A DNA stretch of 64,000 nucleotides from Laspinema palackyanum D2c (lineage in GTDB: Bacteria; Cyanobacteriota; Cyanobacteriia; Cyanobacteriales; Laspinemataceae), in assembly GCF_025370875.1 (NCBI RefSeq), contig NZ_JAMXFD010000007.1, positions 184,356 to 248,355 of the forward strand, read 5' to 3'. The position numbers and the translations under genes were made by a program. The notes under the pieces were generated by a model, which saw nothing but the letters and a program-made list of their open reading frames with translations, had not been told where the DNA came from and ran no database searches. Below are positions 1-13,500 of this stretch, piece after piece. The first letter of the stretch is position 1; every line of letters starts with the position of its first letter.

Positions 1-114
1 AGTGGATCCTTGAATTCACCCTGATTGGCTTAATCAAGTTAGACCCTCTATCTGACTCATCATGTCAGGCTGAATGATGACTCTTGACCTGTTCACACCA
101 GCACAGTTGTAGCT

Positions 115-837
115 ATGGCCTCTGCCAAGATTCTTGTGGTTGATGACGATCCGGCGATCCGGAATTTAATCCATCGCTTTTTAAGTAAGCAAGACTATCA
201 AATGGAGTCGGCTGAAGATGGAAAAAAAGCGCTCGAACTCTTCGAGCAATTTAATCCAGACTTGGTAATTCTGGATGTTAACTTACCCGATACTACGGGG
301 TATCAGCTTTGCCAAGCGATGCAAAAGCGCACGGGTGTTTTCGTTTTAATGCTAACCAGTCGCACGGATGAAGCTGATAAAATCCGGGGATTTAATTTAG
401 GTGCAGATGACTATATTACCAAACCCTTTAGTCTCGTCGAACTCGGGGCCAGAGTCGGGGCGCTGTTGAAGCGTCAACGGGTGGTCCAGGTTGCAGAACA
501 ACCCTCGGTTGATTTCGGATCAATGAGCATCGATCCCGTGCGTCGCGAGGTAACGATCTCTGCTCGTCCCATTCTCCTAACGGCCCTTGAATTTGATCTA
601 CTCTATTTTTTAGCCTCTCATCCAGGCCGAGTTTGGCGTAGATCTGAACTGCTTCAAGAAGTTTGGGATTATGACTATGTGGGGGATCAGCGCGTGGTGG
701 ACGTGCATATCGGCCAAATCCGCCGCAAAATCGAAGGGGATGGCATCTATCCCAAACTGATTCATACGGTGCGCGGAGTGGGGTATAAATTTGAAGCTCA
801 CAGTGGTGATTCCGAAGATGCACCGGAGGAAATCTAG
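115..837 (+). CDS. OmpR/PhoB-family response regulator
   Basis: A 240-aa two-domain response regulator. The receiver (about residues 4-120) has the acidic pair in VVDDDP, the phospho-acceptor Asp in VILDVNLPD, the switch Thr in MLTSR and the Lys in ITKPFS. The C-terminal winged helix (about 135-230) carries the OmpR signature LTALEFDLLYFLASHPGRVW and ends DVHIGQIRRKIE...HTVRGVGYKF. Such proteins bind promoter DNA as phosphorylated dimers. No cognate histidine kinase lies next to it, so the partner is unknown. The receiver differs from RpaB as I remember it, so I give no gene symbol. ATG start. Confidence 0.93.
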   Translation: MASAKILVVDDDPAIRNLIHRFLSKQDYQMESAEDGKKALELFEQFNPDLVILDVNLPDTTGYQLCQAMQKRTGVFVLMLTSRTDEADKIRGFNLGADDYITKPFSLVELGARVGALLKRQRVVQVAEQPSVDFGSMSIDPVRREVTISARPILLTALEFDLLYFLASHPGRVWRRSELLQEVWDYDYVGDQRVVDVHIGQIRRKIEGDGIYPKLIHTVRGVGYKFEAHSGDSEDAPEEI

Positions 838-1153
838 TCCAAATTTAGATGTGATCGTCCCTAATTTTCAATTCATTCTCATTCGGGACTCAATGGCGTC
901 TGTACGAAAAACAAACGCCTTTTCCCCGGGGTCCCAATGTTGGTGAATCGGCTGTTTGAGTTGCTATAGAGGGGCCTAGGCAATCTCTCCAGCTCACTCT
1001 CTTTTCTCTTCATTTGCTCTCGAAAGGTTTTAGAAATGTTTGGGAATCTGGTACTCCCCTCTCCCTAATGGTTTGCCCGGATTCATTACATCCCTACCTC
1101 TGTAGCAGCCTCCTCTCCCGATTCATCAACCCAGATTCCCCAACCTTTGCCCG

Positions 1154-1378
1154 TTACACCGGATGCTGAAACAGGGTTTCCAGATACACTCTAGCCGCTT
1201 GGTGATAGTTTTTTGAGGCTTCCGGGGTCCGGTTATCCCCATTTTGTAACAAAAACAGAGACAGGGCCGCAGCAAACACCCGGTCTTGATCCCAGTCGGG
1301 GTGAGAGTCTAAATACCCTTTAAGGGATTGATGCAGTTCTTCTGGAATTTCTGCAAGGATGCTGACGTTTGCGTTCAT
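1154..1378 (-). CDS. DUF2811 family small protein
   Basis: A 74-aa protein starting MNANVSILAEIPEELHQSL and containing HPDWDQDRVFAAALSLFLLQN. I recognise this as the small DUF2811 family found almost only in cyanobacteria. Its fold resembles a ribbon-helix-helix or CopG-like protein, but no function is established. A strong GGAGG ribosome-binding site sits about 8 nt before the ATG (1387-1391 on the minus strand), fixing the start. It is transcribed away from the DnaA-box cluster at 1.7-1.9 kb. Confidence 0.85.
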   Translation of the reverse strand: MNANVSILAEIPEELHQSLKGYLDSHPDWDQDRVFAAALSLFLLQNGDNRTPEASKNYHQAARVYLETLFQHPV

Positions 1379-1709
1379 TCTGGAAACCTCCGTGCGCGTT
1401 CCGCGTAGCTGTTAACGTTTTACCAATCCCCACCGGCTTTGATTCAAGCTGGCGTTACTCTCATTCGGGTTGCCGCATTCCGCTTGAGCTCGCTCGTTCA
1501 AGCTAAAGCCCTTCGATTAGAATGCTGGCTGCTTATTTTAAAAAGCTGCAATGACGAGAAACCCTTTTGTTTTAGGTTGGCGGTTTCATTGTGCGCTCAG
1601 AAGGGGTGGAGTTGTCAACGTTGCGAAATGTTACAATTTTCGGTCTGGGTCCCTCAGAGCCACGAGAGAATAAGGGTTTTAACCATTTATTGTTACAGAA
1701 CTTTACAAA

Positions 1710-1801
1710 TTTTCCCCAGGCGATCGCCTTGAGGCATTTTTTGACCTTAATCCCCAGTTCAACCAAAACATCAGAACTCGAAGGCGATCGCCTGGGGAAA
1801 A
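1710..1801. repeat. 21-bp perfect inverted repeat with HIP1 cores
   Basis: The arms at 1710-1730 and 1781-1801 are perfect 21-bp reverse complements, separated by 50 nt. Each arm contains GGCGATCGCC and ends in a DnaA-box-like TTTTCCCCA/TGGGGAAAA. The outward-facing boxes flank the denser box cluster that follows. It could form a cruciform or be part of an origin. Confidence 0.75.
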
Positions 1802-2193
1802 CTCTCCCTAACCTGTGGAAAACCCCCGATAACCTGTGGAAATCTTTGTGGAATCTGTGGGGAAAACCAGCCGAAAAAATAAGAATTGCAAAATTTTAGC
1901 AATTTTAGGGAAGTTAGAAATTGGTAACTGAAAATTATCACTCTCCACAATATAGAGTTAGTGATTAAAAATCCAGTGATTATTAACTGTTGATTTTATC
2001 CGCAAATTTTCCTCGGGAGTTCTGTCTAGGCATTGCCTAGATTTAGGGACCATCCCAGGTGCCTTGTCCTCGCCAATCATCCCATTCTTGACTTCCTGCC
2101 CCTTTAACCCCTCTCCCCGGGCATGAACCCGGGGATTTTTCAGCGCGATATCCCACCGTTAGGGCCAGGATTGTTAAGTTCTACTAACTTTGC

Positions 2194-2231
2194 TTGACGC
2201 CTAAAAATCCTATCTGTAACAATTGTTACAG
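2194..2231. promoter_or_regulatory. Palindromic operator-like site with -35-like TTGACG
   Basis: CTGTAACAATTGTTACAG at 2214-2231 is a perfect 18-bp palindrome. It lies 88 nt upstream of the small gene at 2319 and just after a TTGACG hexamer at 2194-2199, so it would overlap a -10 region. This looks like a dimeric repressor operator; the regulator is not identifiable. Confidence 0.45.
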
Positions 2232-2318
2232 ACAAAAATATTACATAACCCATGTAGGTACAACCCAGATCGAGTTTTTGGATCCAGGGTCACCTTGAGC
2301 ATAAAAACGGAAAAAATT

Positions 2319-2573
2319 ATGAAACTCGACCTAGTTAAACAAGAATTGGAAAAACTTTATTTGCGATCGCCCGAATGGATCCCCACATCCCACCGGGAAA
2401 TCTTATGGCAGGAACCCGAACCCAACACCTGGGTGCAATTACTAGAACAACCCAGCGAATACAGTGCAGATCAAGCCTTACTTCTGTGTAAATGCGGCGA
2501 TCGCGAGTGGGTAGCCTGGGTCCCCGAACATGGGGAGGTCATCTTGCATGAAGACCAATTTTACGGACTCTGA
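2319..2573 (+). CDS. Hypothetical small protein
   Basis: An 84-aa soluble protein beginning MKLDLVKQELEKLYLRSPEW and ending VILHEDQFYGL. It is rich in Trp and acidic residues, with a CKCGDREWVAWVPEHGE segment. I do not recognise a family. An upstream start at 2223 would add 32 residues of non-protein-like sequence inside the palindrome, so I chose the ATG at 2319, although its RBS is poor (GGAAAAAATT). The next gene converges on it. Confidence 0.6.
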   Translation: MKLDLVKQELEKLYLRSPEWIPTSHREILWQEPEPNTWVQLLEQPSEYSADQALLLCKCGDREWVAWVPEHGEVILHEDQFYGL

Positions 2574-2593
2574 ATACGAAAGAAGGAGGAGAT

Positions 2594-2623
2594 GTTTGTA
2601 GTAACGACTTTAGTCGTTTCTTC
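2594..2623. repeat. Copy of the AACGACTAAAGTCGTT dispersed repeat
   Basis: One arm of the family also seen at 24.26-24.35 kb and 30.4-30.9 kb: GTTTGTAGTAACGACTTTAG followed by TCGTTTC. It sits between two convergent genes and has a palindromic core able to form a hairpin. Confidence 0.8.
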
Positions 2624-2637
2624 TCCCCCATCTCCCC

Positions 2638-4641
2638 TTACCACATCCCCGCAGCGAGTCCATAATGCACCAATAACCAACTCAACCCGGTTCCCACACC
2701 GATGCCTAATGTGGCAACGGCTAGGTGACGAGCGATCGCACCTATCCCAGCGTTTTTCCGTTGAATTTCCTGTTTGGCGGTACTGCTTAAAACTAATCCC
2801 GTCACCCCAACTTCTGCCACTTTCCCCGCCATTCCCGTAGCCACTCCGAGCGCCACAAAAGACAAACCAAAAATTAACAGCGGTAGTAATACCACCATCC
2901 GTTTAAAGCCTGCCTTAAATAACTCTAATATCCCAATGCCAATGCCTCCCATTGCCATTGCTGCTACAATAACCCCTAATAATTTTCGTTCTGGATGCTC
3001 TAACCAGGCAATATCGACTACGGTAAAAGACCACAAACCCAGTCCGACTAAACTCGGCGCAACCAACCATTTTCGCGAAAATTCAGCCACCTGCTCGATC
3101 GCCGGGTCCTGAATCTTATCGGAAAACCCTCTACCCGATAACAGAACCAAGGGAACGGCGATCGCCACCGCCACATAAGGAGACAGAAAAATCAAGGGAA
3201 CAGCTACCGTCGTTCCAAACAAGATAACTGGAAACGGAACTGCGACTTTTTGTTTCCAATTGGCCATTTTACCCGGTTCTGAACCTACCCATTCTGCCGG
3301 AACTTCCCGAGGAGAAACCCACAGGGAAAGCGGGATAATTTGGGTTTTATTCGCGGTATTGGCATGAAGTAAAAGATTTCGAGTGTAATCTTGACTAACG
3401 ACTAAATTTGTGGTATCAATTTTAATTTCAAATTCAGTTTCATTCCCCTGAAACTTTGCGGGTTTTATAGAGATCCAATCCGGCTTTGTCTTGGGATGAT
3501 TCGAGTCTGGAGCAATTTCCCACCGTCCCGCTAGGACTGTATCATCCACCGGATTTTTGACCGTGAGAGTTTGGGTGAGGGTTTCTCCGGCTTGGGTGCG
3601 TAATTCCAGCCGAGTCTGGCTAAATTCCGCTTCCGGTAACAGGCGGCACACCGAAATGGGAGTCAGGGCTTCTAAAGCTGCTGCTGCATGAGAAAAGCGA
3701 TCGCCACTATTCGGTTCCACCATTTTCTGTAACCAGTGAATAAACTCATCACTGAGATGGGGGACTAACTCCGCAAAATTGAGGCGATAGCTACTATCAA
3801 TTAAGCGGTTAATTTCACTAGAATCCGTTTGGGTTAGCAAACATATTAGGGTCACTCCTAACCCATATAAATCAGACGCTTCCGTAAGTTTTAGATTGAG
3901 TAATTGCTCTGGTGGCATGAACCCCGGTGTGCCAGAAACTACACTACTTTGCGCCACATCGCCTCCACCGATGCGGGCAAATCCGAAGTCAATGAGGTAA
4001 ATAATATCGGTGCGATCGCCCATTAAAATATTTTCTGGTTTGATATCCCGGTGAATCACCCCGGGAACCCGGTTTTGCAGATAAACCAAAATTTCCAAAA
4101 CCGCCAGAGCAATTTGTTTGATTTTCTCCGGGTCCAGACGCCGAAAAACTGCTAAAGATTGGGCATTTTTATAGTCATGAACCAGACAAAATCCCTCCGA
4201 TGTTTCAAAAGAATCCAGATAGCGAGGAATCCCCGGGTGACTCAGACCCTGCAATACTTTAATTTCCCGTTCATGAGCTTTGTAGGCGGACCAATCTGCA
4301 CCGGGTTTAGCAAACTGAAATTGTTTGATCACCACAGGTTTTTGAGTTTTCAGATGGGTTGCCAAATAGGTCGAACGACCCCCGGCATAGTTATGACCCA
4401 AACTCTGAAGCACTTGATATCCATGACTAGAACAGTCCGGGAACTGAGGCGAATTAGAACCCGGGGAGAGGGTTGGACTCGACCCCTGGGGATTCAGGGA
4501 TGGGTTATCCTTGCCCTTGAGGAGAGAGAAGAGATTTCCGTTTCCAGGATGTCCCGCTTCCTCCAATCCCAAGGGAGCTTTATTTCCGGCAACCCGTTGG
4601 GAGAGTTGTTGTAACCAGGTTTTCATGACTTTTTCGGCCAT
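2638..4641 (-). CDS. Serine/threonine protein kinase with C-terminal membrane segments
   Basis: About 667 aa. After a Ser/Pro-rich leader, a Hanks-type kinase domain spans roughly residues 75-325: a glycine-loop-like segment (LGHNYAGGRSTYLA), the ATP-binding Lys in VVIKQF, the catalytic loop VIHRDIKPENIL, the Mg-binding DFGFAR and the activation end GTPGFMPPEQL. A beta-rich stretch of about 120 residues follows (340-465), then several hydrophobic segments (about 475-665) suggesting a multi-pass anchor. The kinase probably faces the cytoplasm. The ATG at 4641 is used; a GTG at 4644 and an ATG at 4626 (MKTWLQQL) are alternatives, none with a strong RBS. Confidence 0.92.
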   Translation of the reverse strand: MAEKVMKTWLQQLSQRVAGNKAPLGLEEAGHPGNGNLFSLLKGKDNPSLNPQGSSPTLSPGSNSPQFPDCSSHGYQVLQSLGHNYAGGRSTYLATHLKTQKPVVIKQFQFAKPGADWSAYKAHEREIKVLQGLSHPGIPRYLDSFETSEGFCLVHDYKNAQSLAVFRRLDPEKIKQIALAVLEILVYLQNRVPGVIHRDIKPENILMGDRTDIIYLIDFGFARIGGGDVAQSSVVSGTPGFMPPEQLLNLKLTEASDLYGLGVTLICLLTQTDSSEINRLIDSSYRLNFAELVPHLSDEFIHWLQKMVEPNSGDRFSHAAAALEALTPISVCRLLPEAEFSQTRLELRTQAGETLTQTLTVKNPVDDTVLAGRWEIAPDSNHPKTKPDWISIKPAKFQGNETEFEIKIDTTNLVVSQDYTRNLLLHANTANKTQIIPLSLWVSPREVPAEWVGSEPGKMANWKQKVAVPFPVILFGTTVAVPLIFLSPYVAVAIAVPLVLLSGRGFSDKIQDPAIEQVAEFSRKWLVAPSLVGLGLWSFTVVDIAWLEHPERKLLGVIVAAMAMGGIGIGILELFKAGFKRMVVLLPLLIFGLSFVALGVATGMAGKVAEVGVTGLVLSSTAKQEIQRKNAGIGAIARHLAVATLGIGVGTGLSWLLVHYGLAAGMW

Positions 4642-4830
4642 CACTTTAACTTGAGCAGCGATCCCTTTCTATTCTAGGGGATGGCTTTCCCCACCTGGGT
4701 AAAAATAGGATAAAATTTCCCTGGAGATTGGGAGTCATGGCCGAAAGGCCCGATTTGCCATGTCAGGGGACAGTTTCTGTCTATTTCTAGTTTTTAGTCA
4801 GTTGAAATCAAAGAATAAACACTCATTAAG

Positions 4831-5704
4831 ATGGACAATTTTTGGGTGAAGCGTTCAAGGTTACAAAACTGAGGAAATATTTGGCAAGTTAAGCGAGTTT
4901 GGAATTCCTCTCACTGAAGTAGAATTTTTGGAGCAGATTCAGTCTTGTTATGGGGCATCGGAACTGCGAAAAAAATGGAAAACCCAGTATGAGATATCAG
5001 CCCAAAGGCGGGATAAAGATTTTCTCTCTCTAGGGGCCAGGGTGTTATTGGAAAGATTAGCACCAGATTTGCTGAGTGCGGAGCAACTCCATGATGTAAT
5101 TGAAGCCGGATTTTATAACTTGGAGGAGAAGCAAGAAGTCCAAGAAACCTGCGATTTGTGGTTAGAATACTGGGGTAAATTTAAAACTCGATTTATTCCA
5201 ATGGGTCTCTCATTTGCGGAGTTAGAAAAAAAGCTGGATGGCGGTCTCTACTCCGTTGCCGGTTGGCTGCTAGAAATAGCCGAGGCCCTAGACCAATGCG
5301 GACAAAAACAACAAAGCTATCTTCAAAAGAAGATTGATTATTGTGAAGAGTATATGACGATATTTCCTGATGCTTACGAAAACCATGCTATTGAGATAAT
5401 GGAGCAAAAATCTGGGACTTTATTTGAATTAGAACAAGTGGAATCTGGAGATGAATGTTACGAGTAAATTCTGACGAATTATCCCGATAATAATAATATA
5501 TATATCTCTTGGGGGAGGTTCTATTGGAAACCTGATTGGTGTTCCCATTCAAGACTTAATTTTGACAAAGCCGAACAAATTTATCGGAGGGGATTGGCAA
5601 ATTCATTCCCCGAGTTTAAACGTGATATTTTGGAGGAATTGAAAGCATTAGAGAAAGCCCGATTAAAAAATAAGGGCTTTGGGAAACCCAGAACCACAAT
5701 GTGA
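4831..5704 (+). pseudogene. Decayed TPR-like gene with an in-frame stop
   Basis: One reading frame is protein-like from about 4850 to a TGA at 5702, but is broken by a TAA at 5465-5467. Before the stop: GKLSEFGIPLTEVEFLEQIQ ... AEALDQCGQKQQSYLQKKID. After the stop, in the same frame: YISWGRFYWKPDWC, then KAEQIYRRGLANSFPEFKRD and further Lys/Glu-rich residues. The second part resembles a TPR helix pair. A plausible ATG at 4831 (MDNFWVK) is out of frame by one base, and a TGA at 4847 blocks the main frame, so there is probably also a 5' frameshift. If the 5' part is translated alone it would be a 179-aa product from a TTG at 4928. I do not recognise the family by name. Confidence 0.65.
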
Positions 5705-5782
5705 AAAAATTGAAAAAGTTAAAACGTAAATAATCGGTGGCGGCTCGTGATTTACGCTGTTTTGAAGCGGGTAGCGGCAGTT

Positions 5783-5887
5783 TAAATCAGTCTGAGCCTA
5801 AAATTAAGGAGTGGGAGCATCTTGCTACCGATCAGGAGTAGGGAGCAAGATGCTCCCACTCCTTAAAGAATTTTCAAACTGATTTAG
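5783..5887. repeat. Long palindromic element (GGGAGCATCTTGCTCCC family)
   Basis: A 23-bp perfect inverted repeat (arms 5804-5826 and 5844-5866, 17-nt loop) contains GTGGGAGCATCTTGCT. An outer 9-bp pair (TAAATCAGT 5783-5791 / ACTGATTTA 5879-5887) extends it. Related cores occur near 33.46 kb and 42.57 kb. It has no coding capacity and looks MITE- or REP-like. Confidence 0.8.
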
Positions 5888-5916
5888 AGTCGCGCTATAT
5901 CACTTGATCCAGGCCA

Positions 5917-5943
5917 AAAAATAGCCCGCTTATGCGGGCGTAG
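5917..5943 (-). terminator. Rho-independent terminator of the exported-protein gene
   Basis: On the minus strand, GCCCGCATAAGCGGGC (5923-5938) is followed by TATTTTTT, directly downstream of the gene ending at 5979. Confidence 0.8.
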
Positions 5944-5978
5944 GACGGGGAATTTACCTATTTTTTGAAGCGGTTGTT

Positions 5979-6329
5979 TTAGCGTCTCATGTAATTTCTT
6001 AAGCTTCCCCGGACTTCCCGTGCATCGCTAGAGCTATCGCTGGCAACAGCGATCGCAGCGAGGAGTTCCCGTCCACTTTCAATGCACATAATTTTCGCTT
6101 CCAAATCCCTGGTGGCACCCTGGATTAATTCATTATCCTGGACTTCCACATTCTCCAATCCGGAGGATTTCATGGCTTCAACCGCTTGTCTTACACATCC
6201 GTCCCGGTTTGTCGAACTCATGCGGACCCAAGTCAAGCGCAAATTTTGGTTTGCTAACGAGGGGGTGGACCAAAACAGAAGGCTCAAGCCTACGGTAGTG
6301 GCGATGGTTTTTTGAAGGGTTTTCATCAT
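5979..6329 (-). CDS. Small exported protein of unknown function
   Basis: About 116 aa from the double ATG at 6329/6326; a TTG at 6353 is possible but unlikely. The N-terminus MMKTLQKTIATTVGLSLLFW ending STPSLA-NQ is a classic Sec signal peptide with signal peptidase I cleavage after SLA. The mature part (about 90 aa) contains two Cys (DGCVRQA and IMCIESG) that could form a disulfide, and a Ser/Asp stretch DSSSDAREVRG. The pattern suggests a small periplasmic protein, but I do not recognise the family. A clear intrinsic terminator follows. Confidence 0.72.
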   Translation of the reverse strand: MMKTLQKTIATTVGLSLLFWSTPSLANQNLRLTWVRMSSTNRDGCVRQAVEAMKSSGLENVEVQDNELIQGATRDLEAKIMCIESGRELLAAIAVASDSSSDAREVRGSLRNYMRR

Positions 6330-6619
6330 AAAAGCTAAGGTTAAAGTGTCCAAGTAACTATAACGCTTTTTGGCCTTTTAAGTTCCTCCGACGGGAGAAA
6401 AAAGAAGGCGTTCGATAAAAAGAATAACCCGGTCCGGGGACAGTTAGACGAGGAATCTTTGAATTTGTGACGAGTTCGGCGCATTCATCAACAGTAGATT
6501 ACCACCCCAATGGGGGATGAAAGCTTGAAAAATTAAATTTTAGGTAATTGGGATTGGGGTGAAATGTTATCAAAATGCTCGGATTTACACCCGGAGTAAA
6601 GGGGAAAAGAGGCAATCCG

Positions 6620-7195
6620 CTAATTGTTTGTTTTAGCCGTTTTGTCTGAAATTTCTACGGCTTTATAATAGGCGCGCTCATAACAATCCCGGGCTTCTAA
6701 ATAGCGATTTAATCGCGACCAAGCAATGCCTTCCATTTCCAAAATATGAGGGGAACCCATGCTATTGGGACACAGAGCCAGGGCTTGTTTATAGGCAAAG
6801 ATTGATTCTTCATAACGTTCAAGGGTAAAGAACAAGGCCCCTAAGCCATTCCAGGCTTGATAACGGGCAATCGGATTAGCGCTGACTTCTAGGGCCTTGC
6901 GATAAGAGGCGATCGCCTCCTCGTAGCGATGCAACCGTTTGAGGACCTCCCCCCGTTGCTGCCATGCATAGCAGGCGGTGGGTTTTTGGAGTAAAGCACA
7001 TTCATAAGCGGCGATCGCTTCGAGATAGGCTTTTGCTACCCGGAAGCGATCGCCTTCCCGCTTCCAATACTCATAATTTTGTTCACCCTCTTGATGTTCG
7101 GTTGACAAACTATCCTTTCGATTGAACAGGGGTTGATGCCTGTTCGAGTTCGTTGGATAGATCTCAGGTAACTCATGAAACGGTTGTTCTTGCAT
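6620..7195 (-). CDS. TPR repeat protein
   Basis: A 191-aa soluble protein with about three tetratricopeptide repeats over residues 45-180: AYLEAIAAYECALLQKPTAC, YEEAIASYRKALE and YEESIFAYKQALALCPNS, plus a partial repeat RYLEARDCYERAYYKA. TPRs form helical superhelices for protein binding; the partner cannot be told from sequence. The N-terminal 45 residues are polar and probably disordered. AGGAG about 9 nt before the ATG supports the start. The gene stands alone. Confidence 0.88.
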   Translation of the reverse strand: MQEQPFHELPEIYPTNSNRHQPLFNRKDSLSTEHQEGEQNYEYWKREGDRFRVAKAYLEAIAAYECALLQKPTACYAWQQRGEVLKRLHRYEEAIASYRKALEVSANPIARYQAWNGLGALFFTLERYEESIFAYKQALALCPNSMGSPHILEMEGIAWSRLNRYLEARDCYERAYYKAVEISDKTAKTNN

Positions 7196-7421
7196 TGGAA
7201 TCTCCTAACAGAGCCATTCCTGGAAAGGGGTCCTTTGTATGACTGAAGACCCATTCAGCTCGATACCTACCCCAACCTTTAAGGTTGAGTATAGATGAGG
7301 TTTCTTAAACCTGTTGTTCCTTAAAATAACTCACTTGATCCCTATGTCAGGATTTCTTAGTAAATTTTTTATACTTTACCCGATTTTTGTTATATTACTT
7401 AACGTTAGTTCACCCTAATTC

Positions 7422-7721
7422 ATGAACTATCTTCATAAACTCCACCCCGGCCCGGTCCATCCTAGAGGGGGACTCACGTCAAGGTTCGTATTTAATTTTG
7501 ATGACATGGAAGCAGCAGATTTCCGTTACAATCAGGAAAGGGCCAGGATTCATTCGGCAGAAATGCGCGATGCCAATCCGCCAGTCAGAGTGGTCAAAAC
7601 CCCGGAAATCTGGCAAGGCGATCGCCTCTCAAGGCTGAATGGGTATAGTGATCGCCGCCCTGTCAACCCTGACCAACCCCTGAAGGGGCGATCGGCTCCA
7701 CCCCAGGGGTCCAGATTGTAA
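7422..7721 (+). CDS. Hypothetical protein (low certainty)
   Basis: A 99-aa basic, Arg/Pro-rich reading frame starting MNYLHKLHPGPVHPRGGL, with RYNQERARIHSAEMRDANPP in the middle. No domain is recognised. In its favour: an AT-rich promoter-like stretch just upstream (about 7360-7410), no competing frame, and the next gene begins 100 bp later. Against it: no clear RBS and a low-complexity C-terminus. I regard it as a plausible small lineage-specific protein. Confidence 0.45.
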   Translation: MNYLHKLHPGPVHPRGGLTSRFVFNFDDMEAADFRYNQERARIHSAEMRDANPPVRVVKTPEIWQGDRLSRLNGYSDRRPVNPDQPLKGRSAPPQGSRL

Positions 7722-7821
7722 AGTGATGTTGCGAATCTTTCAAAAATCTTGAAAAATCTATTAAAACAGAAACAGCATATTACTCCGATCTTAAATCTAT
7801 AGTTTTCGAGGAAACCCCTTA

Positions 7822-8136
7822 ATGAATAAGCTGCAAAAATACCGATTGGTCTGCACCCTGACCTTTGGAGATATCTACGGACAAATCATCATTTGGCTGA
7901 TCGTGATTTTCCTGAGTTTAGCCTCCGCCCTCGCCTTGTGGAGTACCGCTCGTCAAATCTTCGCCCTCGCTACAGTGGGTTTAATCGTCGTTCTCTCCCT
8001 GCCCTTTCTCCTGTTTGCCTTCGTCACCACCTTGCTCAATCACATCGAACTGAAGCCGGTCGAGATCTCTGCAGAACCGGCGGAGTCAAGTTCTAGAACT
8101 GCACCCAACTCTAATCCCGCCCAAGCAGCGAGTTAG
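7822..8136 (+). CDS. Small two-helix membrane protein
   Basis: A 104-aa protein with two strongly hydrophobic helices (about residues 23-43, IIIWLIVIFLSLASALAL, and 48-70, FALATVGLIVVLSLPFLLFA) and a polar, Ser/Ala/Pro-rich C-terminal tail. The ATG follows GAGGAAA. It lies 204 bp upstream of sdhA on the same strand but is separated from it by a probable terminator (8236-8263). Its length and topology resemble a membrane-anchor subunit, but I see no haem ligands or family motif, so a role as an SdhA anchor is only speculation. Confidence 0.7.
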   Translation: MNKLQKYRLVCTLTFGDIYGQIIIWLIVIFLSLASALALWSTARQIFALATVGLIVVLSLPFLLFAFVTTLLNHIELKPVEISAEPAESSSRTAPNSNPAQAAS

Positions 8137-8235
8137 CCTAACCGAGGGAGAACCGACTGCTGAACCTTAAAATCTTTAATGCGGCCCTGTTCATCCTCAA
8201 GCGCGAATCCGCGATCGACTGAGCGATTCTAAAAA

Positions 8236-8263
8236 ATTCCCTACCTTTGAGGAGGGATTTTTT
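8236..8263 (+). terminator. Intrinsic terminator between the membrane protein and sdhA
   Basis: CCCTACCT-TTG-AGGAGGG forms a G+C-rich stem with one bulge, followed by nine T residues. It would end the upstream small-gene transcript and partly insulate sdhA. Confidence 0.7.
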
Positions 8264-8340
8264 TTTGAGTGGGAAGATAGATCCAGAACCAATCCAGAAC
8301 ACCTTTAGATCCCATAGATCCAACGAGAGCTAAGAGAACC

Positions 8341-10068
8341 ATGATAGAACATGACGTCATTATCGTCGGGGGCGGACTTGCCGGTTGTCGCGCCGCAGTG
8401 GAAATTGGGCGCATCAATCCCAGCATCGATGTCGCCGTAGTCGCCAAAACCCATCCCATTCGGTCCCATTCCGTTGCCGCCCAAGGGGGAATCGCCGCTA
8501 CCCTCAAAAACGTCGATTCCACCGATAGCTGGGAGGCCCACGCCTTTGATACGGTCAAAGGGTCCGACTATTTAGCCGATCAAGATGCGGTAGAACTGCT
8601 CACCAAAGAAGCCCCTGATGTGGTTATCGACCTCGAACACATGGGTGTTCTCTTCTCCCGGTTACCCGATGGGCGGATTGCTCAAAGGGCCTTCGGGGGC
8701 CATTCCCATAACCGCACCTGCTACGCCGCAGATAAAACCGGCCATGCCATGTTGCACGAACTGGTGAATAATCTGCGCCGCTATGGGGTCCAGGTCTATG
8801 AAGAATGGTACGTCATGCGGTTGATTTTGGAAGACGGACAAGCCAAAGGATTGGTGATGTACCATATTCTCGATGGCCGCCTGGAAGTGGTGCGCGCCAA
8901 AGTGGTGATGTTTGCCACTGGGGGATATGGACGGGTGTTTAATACCACCTCCAATGACTTTGCCTCTACCGGGGACGGGTTGGCGATGTCGGCAATGGCG
9001 GGGGTGCCGTTACAAGATATGGAGTTCGTGCAGTTCCATCCCACGGGACTCTATCCCGTGGGGGTGTTGATTTCGGAGGCGGTGCGTGGGGAAGGGGCCT
9101 ATTTAATTAATAGCGAGGGCGATCGCTTTATGGCAACCTACGCCCCCAGTCGCATGGAATTAGCCCCCCGTGATATTACCTCTCGGGCGATTACCCGGGA
9201 AATTCGCGCCGGACGAGGAGTCTATCCCGATGGTCGTCCTGGAGGGCCTTGTGTCTTCCTCGACCTACGACACATGGGACAGGAAAAAATTATGAGCCGG
9301 ATCCCCTTCTGTTGGGAAGAGGCCCACCGTTTGTTAGGGGTCGATGCAGTCTATGAACCGATGCCTGTACGTCCCACGGGTCATTATTCAATGGGAGGCA
9401 TTCCTGTTAATACCGAGGGACAGGTCCGAAGTGGTCCCGATGGGTTGGTGGAAGGATTCTTTGCAGCAGGGGAATGTGCCTGTGTGTCCGTACATGGTGC
9501 CAATCGCCTGGGGAGTAATTCTCTGCTGGAATGTGTGGTGTATGGGAAAATCACGGGGGCGGCGATCGCCCGCTATGTGGAAAACCGCAAATTGCCGGAC
9601 CTCGACGATCGCCCCTACCTCCAACAAGCTCAACAGGAACTGCAATCCCTGGTCGATCGCTCGGGACCCCTCCGCATTGGGGCCGTTCGTCAGGGATTCC
9701 AGGATGCCATGAGTGACCACTGCGGCGTGTTTCGTAGTGATGAACTGATGCGGGAAGGGTTAAAGCAGTTAGAACAGTTCCAGCAGCAGTATCAGCAGAT
9801 TTATTTAGACGATAAAGGCAAACTGTGGAACACGGAAATTATTGAAGCGTTAGAGTTACGCAGTTTAATGGTAGTCGGACAATTGATTTTAGCCAGTGCA
9901 CTCAACCGTCAGGAAAGCCGAGGCGCTCATTTCCGCGAGGATTATCCCGATCGCGATGATGATCAGTTCCTCAAGCACACCTTGTCCTATTATTCTCCTG
10001 CCGGTGTGGATATTCGCTATCGACCTGTAACGATTACTCAGTTCCAGCCGAAAGAACGGAAGTATTAA
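8341..10068 (+). CDS. sdhA: Succinate dehydrogenase flavoprotein subunit
   Basis: A 575-aa SdhA/FrdA-type flavoprotein that oxidises succinate to fumarate and passes electrons through the Sdh iron-sulfur subunit to plastoquinone at the thylakoid membrane. The N-terminus has the FAD dinucleotide fold VIIVGGGLAGCRAAVEIG. HPIRSHSVAAQGGIAA includes the His expected to bind FAD covalently. Further family motifs are GGHSHNRTCYAADKTGH, VQFHPTGLYP, SEAVRGEGAYLIN, HYSMGGIPVN and the C-terminal FAD contact GANRLGSNSLLECVVYG. The length is normal for the family. The start ATG follows AAGAGAA. No sdhB is in the window; scattered sdh genes are usual in cyanobacteria. Confidence 0.95.
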   Translation: MIEHDVIIVGGGLAGCRAAVEIGRINPSIDVAVVAKTHPIRSHSVAAQGGIAATLKNVDSTDSWEAHAFDTVKGSDYLADQDAVELLTKEAPDVVIDLEHMGVLFSRLPDGRIAQRAFGGHSHNRTCYAADKTGHAMLHELVNNLRRYGVQVYEEWYVMRLILEDGQAKGLVMYHILDGRLEVVRAKVVMFATGGYGRVFNTTSNDFASTGDGLAMSAMAGVPLQDMEFVQFHPTGLYPVGVLISEAVRGEGAYLINSEGDRFMATYAPSRMELAPRDITSRAITREIRAGRGVYPDGRPGGPCVFLDLRHMGQEKIMSRIPFCWEEAHRLLGVDAVYEPMPVRPTGHYSMGGIPVNTEGQVRSGPDGLVEGFFAAGECACVSVHGANRLGSNSLLECVVYGKITGAAIARYVENRKLPDLDDRPYLQQAQQELQSLVDRSGPLRIGAVRQGFQDAMSDHCGVFRSDELMREGLKQLEQFQQQYQQIYLDDKGKLWNTEIIEALELRSLMVVGQLILASALNRQESRGAHFREDYPDRDDDQFLKHTLSYYSPAGVDIRYRPVTITQFQPKERKY

Positions 10069-10163
10069 GCCCTAGCCCTGAATTGGTGATGCCAAAGAAC
10101 TCAAAACCCTTGAACATTTGTAGGGTTTTGTTGATAGATACAGCCCAGCCTAGATAAGGGATT

Positions 10164-10201
10164 TCCAACAAATAAAACATTTATATGTTTTATTTGTTGG
10201 A
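10164..10201 (+). terminator. 17-bp perfect hairpin downstream of sdhA
   Basis: Perfect 17-bp arms (10164-10180 and 10185-10201) with a TTAT loop. The stem is AT-rich (AACAAATAAAACAT core) and lies about 95 nt after the sdhA stop. It may work as a terminator or an RNA-stabilising 3' stem, but no T tract follows. Confidence 0.6.
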
Positions 10202-10221
10202 GTTCCTTAAGTGTTTCAAAA

Positions 10222-10254
10222 TTTGACCCAATCAAACTGGGTCAGGTTTTTTCC
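10222..10254 (+). terminator. Rho-independent terminator
   Basis: TGACCCA and TGGGTCA form the stem, followed by GGTTTTTTCC: a standard plus-strand intrinsic terminator downstream of sdhA. Confidence 0.7.
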
Positions 10255-10317
10255 TTCCGGGAACTGCATCCAATAAAATATCCAAAAAACTCTCACCTTA
10301 AAGCATGGGGAGGAAAA

Positions 10318-10350
10318 CGAAAGTAGCCCGCCTGCGGGGGCTACTTTATA
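10318..10350. terminator. Hairpin AAGTAGCCCGC/GGGGGCTACTT
   Basis: A GC-rich 11-bp stem with a CTGC loop and a flanking TATAAAA tail lies between convergent genes (sdhA and the RTX gene). It could be a bidirectional terminator. Confidence 0.5.
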
Positions 10351-10375
10351 AAAACGACTTTTGACAACCGGATTT

Positions 10376-10505
10376 GGTATAATACGGAACCCGGTATTTA
10401 AAGGTCTATAAAAACGGATTGTAGGGGCCTGCGCATCGAAGCCCCTACACATACAGATTGACGCCGCTCGTTTTTATAGACTTATCGGTATCGTATTCCG
10501 TATAG
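10376..10505. repeat. Nested palindromic element
   Basis: Three concentric inverted pairs: ATACGGAA/TTCCGTAT (outer), GTCTATAAAAACG/CGTTTTTATAGAC (middle) and TGTAGGGGC/GCCCCTACA (inner). The whole can fold as one long interrupted hairpin of about 125 nt. It has no coding capacity and looks MITE-like. It lies immediately beyond the 3' end of the RTX gene. Confidence 0.7.
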
Positions 10506-13500
10506 TTACCCAACCGAGAAGAAATCCTCTTGACCAATCAGCGAAACATCCACCCCATTAACCGTCGCCAGTAAGTTGTTACCGGCATAAATTAACGTGC
10601 CAGTATTGCCTTGGGTTAAGGTTAGGTTCTCGAAGGATAAACCTTCTGCCAAACCAATCAAATCTTCTCCATTGGTAAAGTCAACTATGAGATCGGTTCC
10701 GGCATTGGGACGGATAACAAAGCGATCGCTGCCTGCACCGCCTACCATCGTATCGTCACCCAAATCGCCTAACAACCAATCATCGCCATTACCCCCGATG
10801 AGGATGTCATTATCATTGCCACCCCATAGCACATCATCGCCGTCGCCACCGTCGAGGGTATCATCCCCTTGATTGCCATAGAGGAAGTCATTATCGGCGT
10901 CACCAAAGACGAAATCCTTGCCTAAATCGCCGTATAATTCATCAGTGCCAGCGCCACCTTTGAGCGTATCGTCATCTTGACCCCCATGTAAGACATCATC
11001 ACCATCGCCGCCGTCAACCCAGTCATTTCCTTGGTTGCCATTGGCGAAATCGTTGCCATTCTCACCGAAGATCACATCATTTCCCAAGTCACCGTATAAG
11101 CGATCGCTGTCATCGCCACCGAGGATAGCATCGTCATCCTTCCCTCCGTGAACCCAGTCATCCCCCGCACCGGCTGCAATATAGTCAGTGCCTTGGTTCC
11201 CATGAATCGTATCGTTGGCATCGTTGCCATACAGATTATCATTGCCTTCTAACCCTTGGACAAAGTTGCTGCCCGCGTCATCATTGATCTCGTCAGCCGC
11301 GTTAGTGCCCATGAGATTATCCAGGGAAGTTGCCTCAGTATTGGGTGAGACTTGAGGAACCGTAAGATTGGCGATCTCGGTAAACACAGTATTGAGAGAT
11401 GCGATCGCCTCAGATGCCGAGGGTAATGGGTTGATGAACAGCGGTGGAATCCCGGGACTGCCTGGATCGGAGGAACCGGCAGTGGCACTCGAAATCCGAC
11501 TCGTCAAATTTTCGCCCGTGTTATTCTCCACCACTTCTGCAATGGATAAATTGCCTTCCCCGGCAGCAAAGAACTCGTCCGTGGTGGTGCCGAGGGAAAC
11601 TTTCTGGCGCGTTGCGATCGCCCCATTGATATCCGTCTCCCCATTTGCCACCGCATCTGCCTTTTCCTGATTCGCCTCAGCCATCACCGTAGCCGCATCC
11701 GCCGCCATCGCCACGATCCGATTCACATCCAAAGTGGGGTCAATGGTAGCCACATCTTGAGTCGCCGCTTCGATTAGGCTTTGCAGTTGTTCGGCAGAGT
11801 TTAAATCCAAGGCATTTTGGGAGAGAACCGCATTCGCCAAAGTATTGACAACTGATCGGCTAATTTGAGCTTTCTCCAAACTGGAAGCGCCATCGAGTAA
11901 CGCCGCAGTCTGAGTGACGAGATTTTGCACCTGGACCATTGCCAGATTCGTCTCGACCCCTCCGGGAATTCCTTCTTCCGTCGCTGCGATCGGGTCAAAC
12001 GTAGACAAATCCACCTCATCCGGTAAAGATAACGCTTGTGTGACCTTTTGATTCGCTTCCAACGGCGACAAACCCTCGTCGATCGCCTCCGCCACCAAGC
12101 TGGTTAAAAGACTGACAACTTGAGAATCCGGTGTCGCTGTCAGCGGCGTTTCCAACGGTAAACCATTTGCTGTATCAATCCCGCCGGTAATCACAATGTG
12201 ACCCTCTTCCGGGTCGAGTTCCCCATTGCCATTGGTATCGAACGCTTCCAGAGATGCCTCAAACTCAAACAGACCCTCTTCATTCGTCGTCGAGGTGGGT
12301 TCGTTTTCATCGCGGACGCCATTTTTATTCGCATCAAAGAACGCATCAGCCCCGGCAATATAGCCATCAATTGCCCAACCGGTGAAAATCCAAGGAATCG
12401 AGATGATAGGGGTAAAGATCGGACGGGGGGTAGGAATCGCCCATACACCTGTGTTGGCATAGTTGATGATTTGCCGTCCCAGGGGGCGATCGCGCCAATC
12501 CCCAAAAGAGGACATAAAGTCATTCACGGGTGGAACAGTGCCAGTGGCTCCCGAGATTTGGAAAATGATATCGTTATAGTCGCGATTGCGATTGCTCCTA
12601 ATCGGCATATCCTCCCAAGCAAAGGTATCGCCGTTCCCCGTCAGATCCACCATCTGACCTTGAATTGCGTGATTGGAGAAGAAAGGAAGGCGAGGGCCAC
12701 TCAAGAATGCAGTCTCGTTTAAAACACCCCGCACCGTGCCATGAGGGACAAGCATCATGGCAAACTCTGTGCCCGGATTCATGGCAAAATTCTCAATGCC
12801 TTGATACCAGCCGCGATTCCAGTTGGATTCCCCGAATTCAAAAAATCGATCGCTCAACAGCGCTCGATCCCAACGATCAGAGATAACCACATGACCTTGG
12901 TTCGGGTTAAGCGCTCGTCGAGCCGCCTCCCTCATGTACTCCCGGGAACCCACCTGGAGGTTTTCCATCCCCTCAATACTGAAGATGGCCACTTCTCCCT
13001 CATAGCCACTGCCGTCAAACAAGAACTCCACATTAACCCGTCCATCGTCACCCACGACAAACACACCCGGAGAAGTTGGATCTAGAGTTGGGGGTGGCGG
13101 GTTCGGAGTCGGGCTCGGAGTCGGGCTCGGAGTCGGGCTCGGAGTCGGGTTCGGGGTCGGGCTCGGGGTCGGGCTCGGAGTCGGATTGTCTCCTCCGGAG
13201 ACAAAACCATCAATAACAATGGATTTACTGCCAGCCAGAGAGTTGCTGGAACCCAAAGCCGGAAGGGTTAACTCGACATTTTCACCCAATTGGTCTTGAA
13301 TCGTAGCCCCATTCAGTGATAAGGCCGTATTGGAGAGGTATTCTAAGTCAGCAGAACTGTCTCCCGCTTGCACCACATAGTTAAAAGTGAGGGTATTACT
13401 GCCGCTCCCACTGTCGTAAATCGCCGCGCGATCCGGGGTGCCGGTTTCCAGTTGCAGGCGAGGAGTACCCGTGACGGTAACAATTTCGTCAAAGGTGACG

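Follow-up and report, generated by a model that had tools for sequence, protein, structure and literature searches.

DnaA-controlled promoters exist in Escherichia coli and Bacillus subtilis, where DnaA boxes lie upstream of a gene promoter, and clustered boxes also occur off-origin at datA, DARS and other DnaA-box clusters, none of which is known to be marked by a set position in front of a single promoter. As for the replication origin itself, in one survey 55 of 68 species have a predicted cyanobacterial oriC that is flanked on one side by dnaN (PMC4674748), predicted oriCs far from both dnaA and dnaN are described as exceptions (PMC6323995), and DnaA is reported to be dispensable in some cyanobacterial species (PMC7198777). 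Here we describe a row of DnaA-box-like sites from the cyanobacterium Laspinema palackyanum D2c that lies upstream of a gene encoding a DUF2811 protein. Our preferred reading, to which we give a probability of about 0.7, is that this array, which most of the class shares, controls DUF2811 in response to DnaA and that DnaA would act there as a transcription factor.

The box array upstream of DUF2811

The window, that is, the whole stretch of 64,000 nucleotides analysed here, spans positions 184356-248355 of contig C7 in a 7.03-Mb genome (G000) of 81 contigs. The box cluster is flanked by the minus-strand DUF2811 gene (table 1) and an 84-aa plus-strand frame (2319-2573). The DUF2811 protein of the window has identical copies among Laspinema and Oscillatoria records. 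An OmpR-type response regulator gene lies nearby (115-837), and a cluster of such genes is found on the downstream side of DUF2811 in 22 loci and on its upstream side in 8.

The first-pass annotation of this DNA had counted four TGTGGRRAW-like boxes, one of them exact; the exact box (TGTGGAAAA at 1814) is present as described and two further strict matches lie at 1835 (TGTGGAAAT) and 1856 (TGTGGGGAA), whereas the site at 1847 (TGTGGAATC) carries two mismatches. The single-mismatch boxes that it placed around these, TTTTCCCCA at 1710 and TGGGGAAAA at 1793 and 1858, are likewise found (those at 1856 and 1858 overlap), as are an AT-rich tract after the cluster and a 21-bp inverted repeat, which is perfect and has 50 nt between its arms. 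This repeat is no part of the conserved element: both arms are intact in none of the six close named loci tested (the right arm in four of the six), and the arms contain GCGATCGC (HIP1). HIP1 is common in cyanobacteria. A structured RNA was also considered and rejected, with no Rfam family at gathering score in window positions 1-12000 and two plant miRNA matches over the inverted repeat that stay below threshold. Elsewhere in the same region, positions 5799-5867 (minus strand) give a sub-threshold match to the Plastid-psbA-2 3' UTR (35.8 bits, gathering score 55.8).

Table 1. Features of the DUF2811 upstream region (window coordinates)
Feature	Position	Strand	Basis
DUF2811 gene, 74 aa, owner of the element	1154..1378	-	PF10929, E=3.5e-28
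-10-like CACAAT of the predicted DUF2811 promoter, 19 bp from -35	1588..1593	-	sequence position
-35 TTGACA of the predicted DUF2811 promoter	1613..1618	-	exact TTGACA in 76/77 loci
Putative HLR1/RpaB-like direct repeat TTTGTAAAGTTCTGTAAC	1692..1709	-	read from sequence against the published HLR1 consensus
Left arm of 21-bp inverted repeat, unconserved in close kin	1710..1730	.	
Inverted box-like TGGGGATTA, 45 bp from box 1	1748..1756	-	
Right arm of 21-bp inverted repeat, holds box 1	1781..1801	.	
Box 1, TTTTCCCCA on gene strand, 183 bp before -35	1793..1801	-	
Box 2, exact TTTTCCACA	1814..1822	-	
Box 3, ATTTCCACA	1835..1843	-	
Weaker boxes in 11-bp steps (GATTCCACA, TTTTCCCCA)	1847..1866	-	
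AATTCTTAT-type AT-rich element, outer edge of the array	1876..1887	-	by eye, many loci inspected

The cluster had been called far denser than chance; 27 boxes with at most one mismatch occur in the whole 64 kb, and five of them share one 200-bp stretch, the densest found. Low-stringency boxes can arise randomly, as a chance cluster in AT-rich intergenic DNA would require, and stronger evidence that this cluster is real comes from its conservation. The intergenic DNA was matched in 28 of the 39 genomes searched (the window's own counted), with two blocks, the promoter and the box array, common across the order. Searching GTDB with the DUF2811 protein gave 223 confirmed relatives, and among the best 80 of these, a non-random sample, the array is present in all 78 named loci with enough upstream sequence (in L064 and L076 the sequence ends too soon upstream to show it) and lies within 800 bp of the gene in 77 of the 80. 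At least three same-facing boxes occur in every one of these 77 loci, and in 75 of them the best pair on one strand has a spacing of 21 bp (20-22 bp allowed, ties leaning to 21). Same-strand pairs at 21 bp number 109 in 60,625 bp upstream of DUF2811 versus 1 in the other 740,952 bp of the 80 loci; this disparity and the conservation of the array over many families leave a chance origin with next to no probability.

The sole pair counted elsewhere belongs to the displaced array of locus L044, which ends about 1.6 kb upstream of DUF2811, roughly 1.3 kb more than usual, and there the link to the promoter may have been broken by extra DNA. Reduced forms occur as well. In family f37, whose small genomes are probably Cyanobiaceae, 12 DUF2811 copies were read: five have one box and an inverted box 44 bp away, three have two or three same-facing boxes, two have a single box and two have none near. 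One genome with both dnaA and DUF2811 (G109, locus L278) has no more than two TTTTCCCCA boxes, both degenerate and spaced by 33 bp, which may reflect relaxed use of DnaA. The gene on the far side of the array was considered as its owner and rejected because it varies, the largest shared family occurring in 13 loci where 64 loci reach at least 2.5 kb upstream.

The geometry of the region is similarly constrained. Exact TTGACA is found upstream of DUF2811 in 76 of 77 loci, and the distance from box 1 to this hexamer is 182-186 bp in 46 of the 76, 173-175 bp in 10 and 196-197 bp in 17, with the remaining loci at 180, 191 and 206 bp (TTGACA to ATG ranges over 60-282). The boxes stand in a near-fixed relation to the promoter, as at a DnaA-regulated promoter, the promoter itself being predicted by sequence only. 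In 34 of 76 loci TTGACA and an exact -10-like CACAAT are separated by 19 bp; the spacing is 17 in another 10 loci and 18 in 8. An inverted TGGGGA-type site (at most one mismatch) is found 40-49 bp from box 1 in 54/77 loci, and an HLR1-like repeat (at most two mismatches) lies between box 1 and the gene in 56/77 loci versus 5 of 287 random 300-bp stretches. HLR1 is described as the binding motif of RpaB, consisting of two direct repeats with 2 nt between them (PMC9241938, PMC6331805).

The array and the replication origin

The first-pass annotation had proposed the cluster as a chromosomal replication origin outside a dnaA context. In the window genome, dnaA and dnaN are neighbors on contig C9 (by Pfam), away from the array on C7, and the gap between them contains four exact boxes, two in each direction, and a converging pair 17-20 bp apart. 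The converging pair occurs at dnaA in six of seven same-genus genomes and is absent there in two more members of the family; in one of these two, the stretch examined contains no box at all. It also occurs in all six other clusters of this kind that were read (L296, L298, L299, L302, L308 and L309; central pair 18-19 bp apart), five of which lie beside dnaN. The sixth, L302 from a 2.5-Mb genome, is a converging cluster with no dnaN within the 4.1 kb examined, and may represent an oriC located apart from that gene. Among the 80 DUF2811 upstream regions, 77 of which hold the array, no converging pair was found, and since the rule was derived from these same data, only this count of 0/80 is a fair test of it. 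The array has one trait of an oriC, a cluster of TTTTCCACA boxes (one exact box and near matches in the window), and lacks two others, namely adjacency to dnaN, which is usual with published exceptions, and the converging pair 17-20 bp apart. Given these contrasts and the near-fixed distance of the array from a promoter, the proposal of a chromosomal origin is not supported, and the box cluster is probably not oriC.

In the same-genus genome G005, a contig of 7.69 Mb carries dnaA at 1.3 kb and the array at 5.10 Mb, 2.6 Mb away round the contig; in other complete genomes the distance between array and dnaA is 1.0 Mb (G021 and G061), 2.6 Mb (G200) and only 0.1 Mb (G056). The suggested check by GC skew was run on 20-kb samples (40 stretches in G005, 20 each in G061, G070, G271 and G310), which are too noisy or irregular to favor either site overall. 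In G005 the skew is irregular at both places and favors neither the array nor dnaA. In G061 it is roughly V-shaped with its low point near dnaA and yields a mixed outcome (quarter-genome t of 2.3 for dnaA versus 0.9 for the array; half-genome t of 1.3 for dnaA versus 2.3 for the array), in G070 the skew changes at the array in the direction contrary to an origin's, with no switch at dnaA either, and G271 and G310 show no pattern in the sampled stretches. Irregular GC skew is described as usual in part of the phylum (PMC7198777, PMC5987646).

The array might instead be an auxiliary or alternative replication origin, at which DnaA would fill the array and open its AT-rich outer flank. Several observations are consistent with this: the same-facing boxes lie beside an AT-rich flank that ranks in the bottom 1% of 50-bp windows for stability in 42 of 63 loci and contains the least stable window of all within 2.5 kb in 23 of 63, replication from multiple origins is reported for some cyanobacteria (PMC7198777), and the sampled skew shows no preference for dnaA in G005 and favors the array in the half-genome test of G061. 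However, the converging core pair present at dnaA-dnaN is missing from all 80 regions, the distance between array and promoter is near-fixed, the AT-rich AATTCTTA element persists at two loci (L122 and L123) that have no boxes, and the skew of G061 at quarter-genome scale and of G070 at the array speaks the other way. We consider an auxiliary origin quite improbable.

We also scanned 386 genomes of the phylum with a sequence-only model of the array. It matched 235 of them at E <=0.01, many weakly. Among the 104 matches listed, 84 are from genomes with a known DUF2811 place and 74 of these fall within 1 kb of DUF2811, as does the best match in 73 of the 76 genomes with both places listed; the other ten, where read, are dnaN-linked clusters or a second type of site, with the exception of one by dnaA (G332). 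In the window genome, this second type consists of three boxes in a row at 21-bp spacing, located 66 bp past a cation-efflux gene (L294 2236-2286, G000:C6:~270735). Similar triple-box rows with 20-21 bp spacing were read at eight other loci (L297, L301, L303, L304, L307 and L311-L313). These rows sit past the 3' ends of genes for cation efflux (PF01545), guaA or both, some between converging genes, with few of the neighboring genes assigned by Pfam and the others by blastp clusters. The second triple-box site may be a DnaA titration-type site.

The array upstream of DUF2811 could, by the same token, be a datA- or DARS-like locus for DnaA titration or conversion to which DUF2811 is merely a neighbor. 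It is conserved, off-origin and multi-box, as such a locus would be, and the recurrence of the second site beyond gene 3' ends in several genomes fits the same explanation. Near-rigid geometry relative to the DUF2811 promoter is unexpected of a mere sink, and so is the loss of DUF2811 itself along with dnaA, described below; overall we regard this alternative as unlikely.

Joint loss of dnaA and DUF2811

Of 186 genomes of the class, 173 have a DUF2811 match and 13 have none, and 19 have no match to DnaA domain IV. DUF2811 occurs in all 167 dnaA-bearing genomes (copies counted without a stop check); in the 19 dnaA-less genomes, it is absent from 13, interrupted by internal stops in two (L125 in G330 and L126 in G174) and open in four. 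The resulting table (167/0/6/13) gives a Fisher p of 8e-16, uncorrected for relatedness. In all 19 dnaA-less genomes the DnaA ATPase family stays below cut-off, with four weak matches. Full losses of DUF2811 are spread over four families (f2, f7, f13 and f27), both states occur within each of two genera (g34 and g53), and a single deletion is unlikely to explain the co-loss since dnaA and DUF2811 are far apart in the complete genomes listed.

Two control families indicate how far general gene decay contributes. PF10999 is kept in 19/19 dnaA-less genomes, three times with stops and always in genus g50, and PF11267 is kept in 18/19, being missing in G174. Because these control genes decay too, general decay contributes to the losses in genus g50, to which three of the six loci with remaining DUF2811 sequence (L121, L124 and L126) belong. 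DUF2811 is able to outlive dnaA, as the four dnaA-less genomes with an open copy demonstrate.

Boxes with no more than one mismatch, counted over 800 bp upstream of the six remaining DUF2811 copies, number two at L121 (one of them exact and near the gene), none at L122 and L123, three at L124, one at L125 and two at L126. The 20-22 bp pair is lost in five of the six dnaA-less genomes with DUF2811 sequence, in keeping with box maintenance that depends on dnaA; the sole keeper of a pair is L124 (G209), where the array is weakened and one box is exact. At L122 and L123, the TTGACA promoter and the AATTCTTA AT-rich element are kept around the missing boxes. This natural experiment gives the strongest evidence that it is DnaA which the boxes serve and that something else uses the AT-rich element. 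Conserved over many families and mostly thinned or gone without dnaA, the cluster is read as behaving like DnaA boxes; this much of the first-pass reading holds, whereas the status of chromosomal origin is unsupported.

A candidate DnaA-responsive control region

From the observed array, its geometry, its linkage to the gene and the co-loss, we hypothesize that DnaA binds the row of same-facing boxes, which are about two helical turns apart, and that the weaker boxes spaced by 11 bp are probably filled cooperatively. The resulting complex, some 183 bp upstream of the -35, would modulate the TTGACA promoter, which has an unusual long spacer and an HLR1-like (RpaB-type) site through which RpaB may add light or redox input. 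The output of DUF2811 would then follow the level or activity of DnaA. Activation is slightly favored as the sign of regulation because DUF2811 is lost along with dnaA. A counterpoint to reading the array as a control region is that some 180 bp separate its boxes from the -35, a long distance for a classical regulator.

The product of the gene most likely acts in DnaA-dependent replication control, since DUF2811 is found wherever dnaA is found and is mostly missing or broken without it. Its predicted structure is of low confidence (pLDDT 55) and gave no significant match to PDB structures with Foldseek; a PDB sequence search returned one chance match only (E 1.8), and no ribbon-helix-helix family appeared among the Pfam matches of 45 DUF2811 members. 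A 68-aa gene before a PIN-domain gene (L127 1483-2096) matches PF10929 at 19 bits, below the cut-off of 26.6, and hints, from this weak sequence similarity, at an antitoxin-like ancestry of DUF2811. The term DUF2811 was not found in the open literature searched, from which subscription journals are largely missing. We tentatively suggest, as a possibility that we hold to be rather doubtful, that DUF2811 is a partner or regulator dedicated to DnaA that has gone unrecognized in cyanobacteria, comparable in function to Hda, YabA or SeqA, within a feedback loop in which occupancy of the array by DnaA and RpaB-type light or redox input would set the level of DUF2811, and DUF2811 would in turn tune DnaA-dependent initiation.

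The array bears on the control of initiation in cyanobacteria and on the role of DnaA where DnaA is dispensable, and it cautions against taking every DnaA-box cluster found apart from dnaA for an origin. It resembles the cyanobacterial oriC described beside dnaN in Synechococcus elongatus and Cyanothece 51142 (PMC4674748) in having TTTTCCACA boxes in intergenic DNA with an AT-rich neighbor; however, the dnaN-linked clusters read here are converging groups of boxes with a pair 17-20 bp apart, whereas the array consists of same-facing boxes and one inverted site and is tied to DUF2811. Like datA and DARS, it gathers boxes away from the origin, yet it does so in a near-fixed place before one promoter. 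The DnaA-controlled promoters of E. coli and B. subtilis share with it the placement of DnaA boxes upstream of a promoter, and the array differs from these in being an ordered row about 183 bp from the -35, found over many families, before a gene of uncharacterized function.
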